A stretch of DNA of 64,000 nucleotides from Phycisphaerae bacterium (GTDB lineage: Bacteria > Planctomycetota > Phycisphaerae > UBA1845). Position numbers and translations under genes: made by a program. The notes below the pieces were generated by a model, which did no database searches, was not told where the DNA came from, and saw only the letters and a program-made list of their open reading frames with translations. Location: contig JAJDDX010000046.1 of assembly GCA_029260055.1 (NCBI GenBank), forward strand, positions 24,675 to 88,674, written 5' to 3'. Of the stretch, positions 19,365-55,975 are shown in pieces; position 1 is the first letter of the stretch; each line of letters begins with the position of its first letter.

Positions 19365-19396
19365 GGGTGCCACGGACAAGCAGCAGCTTGTCCGTG
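19365..19396 (+). repeat. REP-like palindrome, left flank of RAYT: GGGTGC CACGGACAAGC-AGCA-GCTTGTCCGTG
   Basis: Perfect 32-bp match, inverted, to 20105..20136. Confidence 0.9.
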
Positions 19397-19495: not shown

Positions 19496-20098
19496 ATGTC
19501 CGGCATTCGAACTCGACACCGAAAGCTGCGTCGTCCATGGAACGAGGCAGGCCATGCCCACGAACTGACCTTCTCCTGTAACGGTCGGCTGCCCTTGCTG
19601 GCCAACGACCGGGTGCGCCAATGGCTGCTCGACGCCATGGACACAGCGAGGAGGCGCTGGGACTTCGAATTGTGGGCCTACGTCATCATGCCCGAGCATG
19701 TCCATATGCTCGTATACCCACGGCGCCCGCATTACGAAGTCGCGGCCTTCCTGAAGTCCGTCAAGCAGTCCGTTGCCAGGAAAGCGATTTCGTGGCTGCG
19801 GCAGAGCAGTTCGGGCCTCCTTGGAAAACTGCGGATCGTTCGAGCCGGCCGCGTTGAGCATAGGTTCTGGCTGGAAGGCGGTGGTTACGATCGGAACATC
19901 TTCGATGAGGCGACGGCCTGGACGTGTGTTGAGTACATTCACCGGAATCCGGTACGCCGCGGTCTCGTCGACGCCCCGTCCGACTGGCTCTGGTCGAGTG
20001 CGAGGTGGTATGAGCAGCTCGATGGTGTGAAGCTCGAAATGGACGACTGCCCGCCGCCGGTACGAAACCCGATCACCGGCTGCCGACCTTCGCGCTAG
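19496..20098 (+). mobile_element. REP-associated tyrosine transposase (RAYT, Y1/TnpA_REP family)
   Basis: HUH motif PEHVHMLV, YIHRNPVRRGLV motif, bracketed by inverted palindromic repeats. Confidence 0.9.
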
Positions 20099-20104
20099 CC
20101 CCGG

Positions 20105-20136
20105 CACGGACAAGCTGCTGCTTGTCCGTGGCACCC
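20105..20136 (-). repeat. REP-like palindrome, right flank of RAYT
   Basis: Exact reverse complement of 19365..19396. Confidence 0.9.
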
Positions 20137-48770: not shown

Positions 48771-48889
48771 GGGTGCCCCACCTCCTCCGGAGGTGGGGGA
48801 GGCGATGATCACCGTCCGTTGGCCAATCGCGGGGCTCCGGCACGCTTGGCATCGTCTCCCCCACGTCCCAAGGACATGGGCCACCCGCC
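48771..48889. repeat. REPIN-like inverted doublet of GGGTGSCCCA-headed hairpins (copy 1)
   Basis: GGGTGCCCCACCTCCTCCGGAGGTGGGGGAGGCGATGAT ... ATCGTCTCCCCCACGTCCCAAGGACATGGGCCACCC. Confidence 0.8.
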
Positions 48890-51404: not shown

Positions 51405-51436
51405 GGGTGGCATGGGCAAGCAGCAGCTTGCGCGTG
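51405..51436 (+). repeat. GGGTGGCATGGGCAAGCAGCAGCTTGCGCGTG REP-like unit
   Basis: Same architecture as RAYT-flanking repeats. Confidence 0.85.
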
Positions 51437-51461
51437 TGGCTCGGCGATGCCGCATCCACTC

Positions 51462-51590
51462 AGGGCGGGTGGCCCACCTCCTCCGGAGGTGGGGAAGGCG
51501 ATGATCACCACCGCTGGCGTCGCCAAATGGTGGAGCTGTTGAACGGTCGTTATCGTCTCCCCCATGTCCAAAGGACATGGGCCACCCGCC
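51462..51590. repeat. REPIN-like inverted doublet (copy 2)
   Basis: GGCGGGTGGCCCACCTCCTCCGGAGGTGGGGAAGGCGATGAT ... ATCGTCTCCCCCATGTCCAAAGGACATGGGCCACCCGCC. Confidence 0.85.
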
Positions 51591-51660
51591 AATCGTGACC
51601 ACAGCCGCCAACCGACCGCCAATCAGCGAACGCCCGACGGGCTGGAATTGTCGGACGCTC

Positions 51661-51681
51661 TCAAGCAGCAGCTTGTCCGTG
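51661..51681 (+). repeat. Partial REP-like unit TCAAGCAGCAGCTTGTCCGTG
   Basis: Matches the 3' half of 19365..19396. Confidence 0.75.
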
Positions 51682-51710
51682 CGACTCCGCAGGGAAGGTC
51701 GCCCGCAAAA

Positions 51711-51741
51711 GGTGGCATGGGCAAGCAGCAGCTTACCCGTG
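51711..51741 (+). repeat. GGTGGCATGGGCAAGCAGCAGCTTACCCGTG REP-like unit
   Basis: Same family; abuts the 3' end of mqnE. Confidence 0.85.
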
Positions 51742-53020: not shown

Positions 53021-53055
53021 CGCGGCAGGTCTCGTTCCTCGACGCTGCCCTACAG
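53021..53055. repeat. REP-like repeat CGCGGCAGGTCTCGTTCCTCGACGCTGCCCTACAG
   Basis: Related copies at 53226..53260 (inverted) and 54162..54197. Confidence 0.75.
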
Positions 53056-53225: not shown

Positions 53226-53260
53226 GGTAGGGCACGGTCGAGGAACGAAACCTGCCGTGA
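53226..53260. repeat. Inverted copy: GGTAGGGCACGGTCGAGGAACGAAACCTGCCGTGA
   Basis: Reverse complement related to 53021..53055. Confidence 0.75.
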
Positions 53261-54161: not shown

Positions 54162-54197
54162 GCGCGGCAGGTCTCGTTCCTCGACGTTGACCTACAT
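54162..54197. repeat. REP-like repeat GCGCGGCAGGTCTCGTTCCTCGACGTTGACCTACAT
   Basis: Same family as 53021..53055; abuts pepF-like stop. Confidence 0.75.
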
Positions 54198-55945: not shown

Positions 55946-55975
55946 GGGTGGCATGGGCAAACTTGTTTGCCCGTG
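55946..55975 (+). repeat. GGGTGGCATGGGCAAACTTGTTTGCCCGTG REP-like unit
   Basis: Same head, perfect stem CATGGGCAAAC/GTTTGCCCGTG (one wobble). Confidence 0.85.

Follow-up and report, generated by a model that had tools for sequence, protein, structure and literature searches.

GGGTGS-headed hairpin repeats and RAYT transposases in a Phycisphaerae genome

RAYT genes and hairpin units in the window

The stretch of DNA analysed here (the window; 64,000 nucleotides, G000:C391:24675-88674) is part of a 7.63-Mb MAG of 500 contigs. It encodes a REP-associated tyrosine transposase of 200 aa, RAYT-A (19496-20098, plus strand), that carries an EHVH HUH motif and a YIHRNP tyrosine motif. The protein matches Y1_Tnp in Pfam (PF01797, E 1.5e-7) and REP_Tyr_transpos in NCBIfam (NF047646, E 3.2e-26, 91.9 bits with a cut-off of 80), and its best PDB match is 4er8, the E. 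coli TnpA-REP. Six RAYT-like genes were found in the genome, the best four of which are the paralogues A, B, C, and D. RAYT-B, C, and D are 58%, 43%, and 32% identical to RAYT-A, respectively, and H68, H70, and Y147 are invariant across the four, features that mark RAYT-A as a single-tyrosine (Y1) HUH transposase. The named relatives of these RAYTs are mostly Phycisphaerae. Two more distant RAYT-like genes (L033 and L034, on contigs C191 and C230) have no GGGTGS hairpins that could be seen nearby, and L033 has a TAG within the gene.

RAYTs A, B, C, and D are each flanked by their own inverted headed hairpins with the heads facing outward, and inverted copies also flank most RAYTs of relatives, as is characteristic of REPs. 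The flanking stem is CACGGACAAGC at RAYT-A and CACTGGTGG at RAYT-C, while RAYT-B has CATGGGCAAGC on the left (B1) and CATGGGCAAAC on the right (B2) and RAYT-D has CCCATGTCC and CCCATCTCATTAGCG. In the window, the left A-type repeat (19365-19396, plus strand) is a GGGTGC head joined to a perfect 11-bp hairpin (dG -13.7, z -5.6) and the right one (20105-20136, minus strand) is inverted with an outward-facing head; the sequence of the pair is GGGTGC followed by CACGGACAAGC-AGCA-GCTTGTCCGTG. This is the arrangement that the initial annotation had described for the repeats beside the RAYT gene.

The same annotation listed four further units, at 51405, 51661, 51711, and 55946, as sharing this head and having changed but compensated stems. 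The first is a B1-type REP (51405-51436, plus strand) with an exact GGGTGG head and one uncompensated G.G mismatch in its stem (GCTTGCGCGTG). The third, which spans 51710-51741 (plus strand), is also of the B1 type and has the head AGGTGG and an uncompensated C.A mismatch (GCTTACCCGTG), such that two of the three B units in the window carry an uncompensated mismatch. The fourth is a B2-type REP (55946-55975, plus strand) with an exact GGGTGG head in which all positions are paired, including a T.G wobble; its predicted fold has a dG of -8.5 kcal/mol on the head strand versus -6.7 on the opposite strand. The unit at 51661 is a decayed A-type remnant that reads on the minus strand at 51656-51681 (51656-51687 for the whole unit) with GAGTCG at the head site and four stem mismatches, all in the distal arm, and it folds no better than shuffled sequence (z -0.56). 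The shared head is therefore exact at two of the four units, altered at one, and unrecognisable at the remnant, and full pairing holds for the unit at 55946 only. The list for 51405-51741 had also omitted a heads-out doublet, made up of a D2-type REP (51467-51493, plus strand) as its left half and a D1-type REP (51561-51587, minus strand) as its right half. A second doublet of this kind (D2 at 48771-48797, plus strand; D1 at 48860-48886, minus strand, with one mismatch) lies upstream. As the dispersed units that had been listed, apart from the remnant, are of the B type, their cognate transposase would be RAYT-B, which is located on contig C400 outside the window contig, and not the RAYT-A of the window.

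Another dispersed repeat is present in the window at 53024-53044 (plus strand), 53236-53256 (minus strand), and 54166-54186 (plus strand). It consists of GGCAGGTCTCGTTCCTCGACG and then approximately TGCCCTAC, is without a GGGTGS head, and has 34 copies in the genome at up to two mismatches.

Copy number and placement

The hairpins are short palindromes (20-50 nt) that occur in many, mainly extragenic copies, as REPs do. The B-type 17-mer GGGTGGCATGGGCAAGC has 229 matches in the genome with two or fewer mismatches and the reversed pattern has 3; the corresponding copy numbers are ~128 for C and ~65 for A, with 0-3 for controls. These counts are lower bounds, as contigs C326, C328, and C440 of this genome start inside a REP and the repeats break the assembly. 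B-type copies occur in both orientations. In 1.27 Mb of sampled genome stretches, 306 sites were located; the stretches were picked partly for B matches, so the family proportions are biased towards B. Of the headed copies 86% are extragenic compared to 23% of random positions, a fraction that is approximate because the gene calls came from a simple codon model that missed RAYT-A itself.

The GGGTGS head

The head was expected to be conserved genome-wide, and this holds both within the genome and across the RAYTs of many genera. GGGTGS heads ~90% of the copies across at least eight hairpin types and joins the hairpin directly, the first pair of which is C-G. The intact six-base head is found in 30/35 A, 90/105 B1, 42/46 B2, 56/66 C, 12/12 D1, and 19/21 E copies. 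Within each family the sixth base hardly varies (286 headed copies), being G in B and D1 and C in A, C, and E; with 12 changes across the RAYT tree, it is not a deep marker. A strong hairpin starts at 20% of the 1714 GGGTGS sites in the 1.27 Mb versus 3.6-5.7% for altered heads, the exception being GGTGGS (11%), which is largely the GGGTGS head read one base later. A hairpin scan that was agnostic to the head, carried out beside 75 RAYTs of this genome, its family, and its order, returned GGGTGG 29 times and GGGTGC 19 times with fewer than one of each expected.

At 80 RAYT loci of named genomes (mostly Planctomycetota, with some Desulfobacterales, Armatimonadota, Zixibacteria, and Hydrogenedentota), the tetranucleotide preceding the paired hairpins is GTGC in 34 cases, GTGG in 11, and GTAG in none. 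Measured against the REP tag GT[A/G]G, B and D1 fit as GTGG, while A, C, and E have GTGC and differ at the fourth base. A guide rule would predict GC as the cleavage dinucleotide for GTGC and CC for GTGG, and its outcome is mixed: C fits, with GC on both sides, and B, without CC, does not. No paper on this planctomycete head was found in the collection searched.

Doublets and element layout

The B-type hairpins form heads-out doublets in which two inverted REPs lie at a fixed spacing, the arrangement that defines REPINs and BIMEs. Among the same-family B doublets that face heads out, 21/22 pair a B1 with a B2 (43% expected, p 3e-7), and the corresponding D and E doublets are D1/D2 in 9/9 and E/E2 in 7/7 cases. 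The spacing between centres is mostly 38-43 bp for B1/B2 and ~88 bp for D1/D2 and E/E2. The B1/B2 pair that flanks RAYT-B also occurs at L170, a RAYT from a different planctomycete. In the heterodimeric REPIN of RAYT-B, one end is B1 and the other B2, and the RAYT-A of the window is a paralogue with a third stem; the compensated difference between the units at 51405 and 55946 is thus one between the end types of a single element. The 22 B/B doublets stand among ~140 headed B copies, and the copies outside doublets include many singlets and others that lie beside other families. A third B form, B3 (GGGTGG CATGGG TCCCGGCGCGCCGGGA TTTG CCCGTG), has the B head and lower stem with a different upper stem, and an inverted B1 comes after it in 12/16 cases.

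Stems compared between RAYT lineages

That stems differ in a compensatory way is borne out when different RAYT lineages are compared. Selecting the repeats of 46 RAYTs by the head and the following 6 nt only, a check that is independent of pairing, 36/46 of the left repeats fold compared to 2.6% of shuffles. In 30 independent RAYT pairs, the changes across seven stem pairs were 26 compensated, 14 one-sided but paired, and 0 broken. Stem similarity also tracks RAYT protein identity (Mantel/Spearman 0.63, 0/1000 permutations).

For 47 distinct repeats, restricted to C...G stems such that the first pair is always C-G, covariation was calculated from stem-pair counts with the loops removed and compared to shuffled and slid pairings. 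Double changes occur at six of the seven stem pairs, and the covariation is 0.969 versus 0.258 +/- 0.025 when shuffled (0/500) and at most 0.21 for slid pairings, although the 100% pairing in this set is partly by construction since some of its hairpins were chosen as hairpins. On the RAYT tree, the two main clades have CCN stems and CAN stems, respectively, with one exception, and only 3 changes occur at stem positions 1-2 (CC versus CA), which mark this split. RAYT-linked stems have T.G rather than G.T on the head strand by 12 to 1 (p 0.003, uncorrected for relatedness), an excess that is suggestive only.

Stems within one family

The stems of the dispersed copies of a single family behave differently, and the drift with compensation that had been proposed for them is not supported. 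The consensus stem is exact in 76/96 B1, 32/45 B2, 41/63 C, and 20/30 A copies, and the deviations comprise 61 plain mismatches, 33 A.C pairs, 28 wobbles, 10 compensated changes, and 3 double non-pairs. One-sided changes that are unpaired or wobble therefore number 122 versus 10 compensated, half of the latter belonging to one C subfamily. In the A+B set, both-sided change is seen in only 3/11 pairs, which trace to the A/B founder difference, the B1/B2 founder difference, and one single copy, so a covariation test across the copies would return a signal resting on very few events. The compensated differences between A and B and between B1 and B2 are a few founder states, which belong to separate RAYT paralogues and to two REPIN ends, respectively.

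The proposal that a head plus structure is recognised is accordingly right for the RAYT clade, where lineages compensate, and wrong for a single RAYT, the families of which are nearly identical with the head and lower stem fixed. Each RAYT appears to be matched with a particular lower stem and head, and only the upper stem and loop look free. A scheme in which one RAYT reads the head and any hairpin, with the dispersed stems drifting freely under compensation, could draw on the 26 different loops in B1 and on the shared head and lower stem of B1, B2, and B3, the upper stems and loops of which are unrelated even though all three occur in B elements. It is unlikely given the fixed lower stem within families, the founder origin of two of the three both-sided changes, and the family-specific sixth base of the head.

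Selection on the hairpins where they lie, for a role as RNA structures that serve neighbouring genes as terminators or 3'-end stabilisers, is quite unlikely. Copies are enriched in convergent gaps and depleted in divergent (promoter) gaps, which hold 14/210 copies versus 24% of intergenic length, but the same placement is expected if insertion is tolerated away from promoters and genes. The copies lie in both orientations, an Rfam search of the hairpins gave no match, and changes that G.T pairing would tolerate on the head strand are not favoured (28 versus 33 A.C), which gives no sign of strand-specific selection on structure. Template switching at imperfect palindromes, an established replication error by which one arm is copied to the other and pairing is restored without selection or recognition, would produce double changes such as C:8 GC>AT, but it is very unlikely as the main cause because frequent correction would have repaired the decaying copies (94 unpaired versus 10 compensated), the T.G mismatch persists in B copies with few exceptions (9 reversals to Watson-Crick in 141), and the constant head and the link between stem and RAYT lineage would be left unexplained.

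Proposed mechanism

The units are very probably non-autonomous REP elements that owe their spread to the RAYT transposases of a single clade. The RAYT would bind a single DNA strand at the head and the folded lower stem, cut near the hairpin, and copy or move the doublet to extragenic sites. Work on the TnpA-REP proteins of E. coli, Stenotrophomonas, and Marinomonas (PMC8266576) suggests by analogy that the tag and lower stem may be bound single-stranded here, with the upper stem and loop being structural. The T.G at the base of the stem is predicted to favour the fold of the head strand and could aid strand choice. Each new RAYT paralogue would co-evolve with the stem beside it, such that stem families replace one another while the head and the fold stay, and the copies left behind would decay neutrally. 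The REP copies are probably mobile.

A more specific reading, to which we give slightly less than even weight, is that this RAYT clade, widespread in Planctomycetota and found in a few other phyla, may use a two-part code with regular heterodimers. The invariant GGGTGS-C head would be common to all members while each RAYT would have a lower stem and a fourth tag base of its own, which would allow several orthogonal pairs of transposase and repeat to coexist in one cell.

The repeat kind is ordinary for bacteria, but the head tag is unusual and the both-sided change of the stems is unusually clear. The specificity between RAYTs and REPs has been tested experimentally for few duos only. Four RAYTs with matched stems in one genome and dozens of relatives provide a natural series of stem pairs that change jointly under an unchanging head and fold, making the bases that each RAYT reads directly testable. 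They also serve as a warning that covariation across dispersed copies can stem from a few founder families and not from drift in each copy.

Comparison with known systems

The REP/RAYT systems of fluorescent pseudomonads and stenotrophomonads (PMC3686654) are alike in having a GT[A/G]G-type tag beside a variable palindrome and REPs on both sides of the cognate RAYT. Their genomes likewise contain several classes, orthologous RAYTs go with differing stems, and the copy number is tied to the RAYT. The present system differs in that its RAYT-paired hairpins are preceded by GTGG or GTGC and never GTAG, in that this tag lies inside the six bases GGGTGS and is followed by a C-G pair that does not vary, in its RAYT clade, and in its regular heterodimers. 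The E. coli system, the TnpA-REP of which is the best structural match to RAYT-A, also has two unlike inverse REPs per unit (the y, z1, and z2 REPs in BIMEs), and its requirement for the tag and lower stem with a structural upper stem and loop can be likened to the present case; however, its REPs have the tag GTAG and a two-base mismatch bulge, whereas the sole regular irregularity here is the T.G wobble on the head strand (PMC8266576). The REPINs of P. fluorescens SBW25 (PMC3116915) are similarly inverted doublets linked to a RAYT with decaying singlets, but each doublet is of one group (GI, GII, or GIII), while in the present doublets the two halves usually differ in type and the centre spacing is fixed at about 43 or 88 bp.

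The part of PMC3733652 considered here describes superfamilies of GTAG- and CGTC-tagged palindromes with many copies, noted in Planctomycetes too, and a GTGG-tagged form in O. terrae; the tag variation it names is at positions 2 and 3, and it names no form with C as the fourth base (GTGC). Differing stems at orthologous RAYTs (PMC3686654), REPINs (PMC3116915), and unlike REPs in BIMEs (PMC8266576) have been published already, and the GTGC tag and regular heterodimers make the present system a variant of a known repeat kind.

Distribution in relatives

Full B1 copies are found in 5/60 genomes, this genome included. The stem CATGGTCCACG flanks RAYTs in G010 (L148), G011 (L146), G016 (L106), and G024 (L119), where it has 25, 7, 32, and 9 copies, respectively, and there are none in most other genomes; G019 and G022 have 64 and 28 copies without a detected cognate RAYT. 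The E/E2 hairpins (L031 1330-1370 and dispersed copies; GGGTGC CCCATCCTTCGGG.. and CCCATCCTTGC.., heads out at ~88 bp) are abundant in the present genome, yet their cognate RAYT was not found in it, and RAYTs L151 and L153 of the relative G011 carry ends that are very similar. For both the E/E2 repeats and those of G019 and G022, the RAYT may have been lost, be missing from the assembly, or act in trans. In another genome (G038:C1:2613900-2620200; L125 and L126), several nearly identical RAYT genes lie ~1.58 kb apart, each with its own GTGTGC CACTGCTC hairpin pair, in what is a local RAYT amplification. The RAYTs L159-L164 of relatives form a more distant group, the flanking palindromes of which are of the GGTGCGAGAATCC type and unlike the GGGTGS kind.
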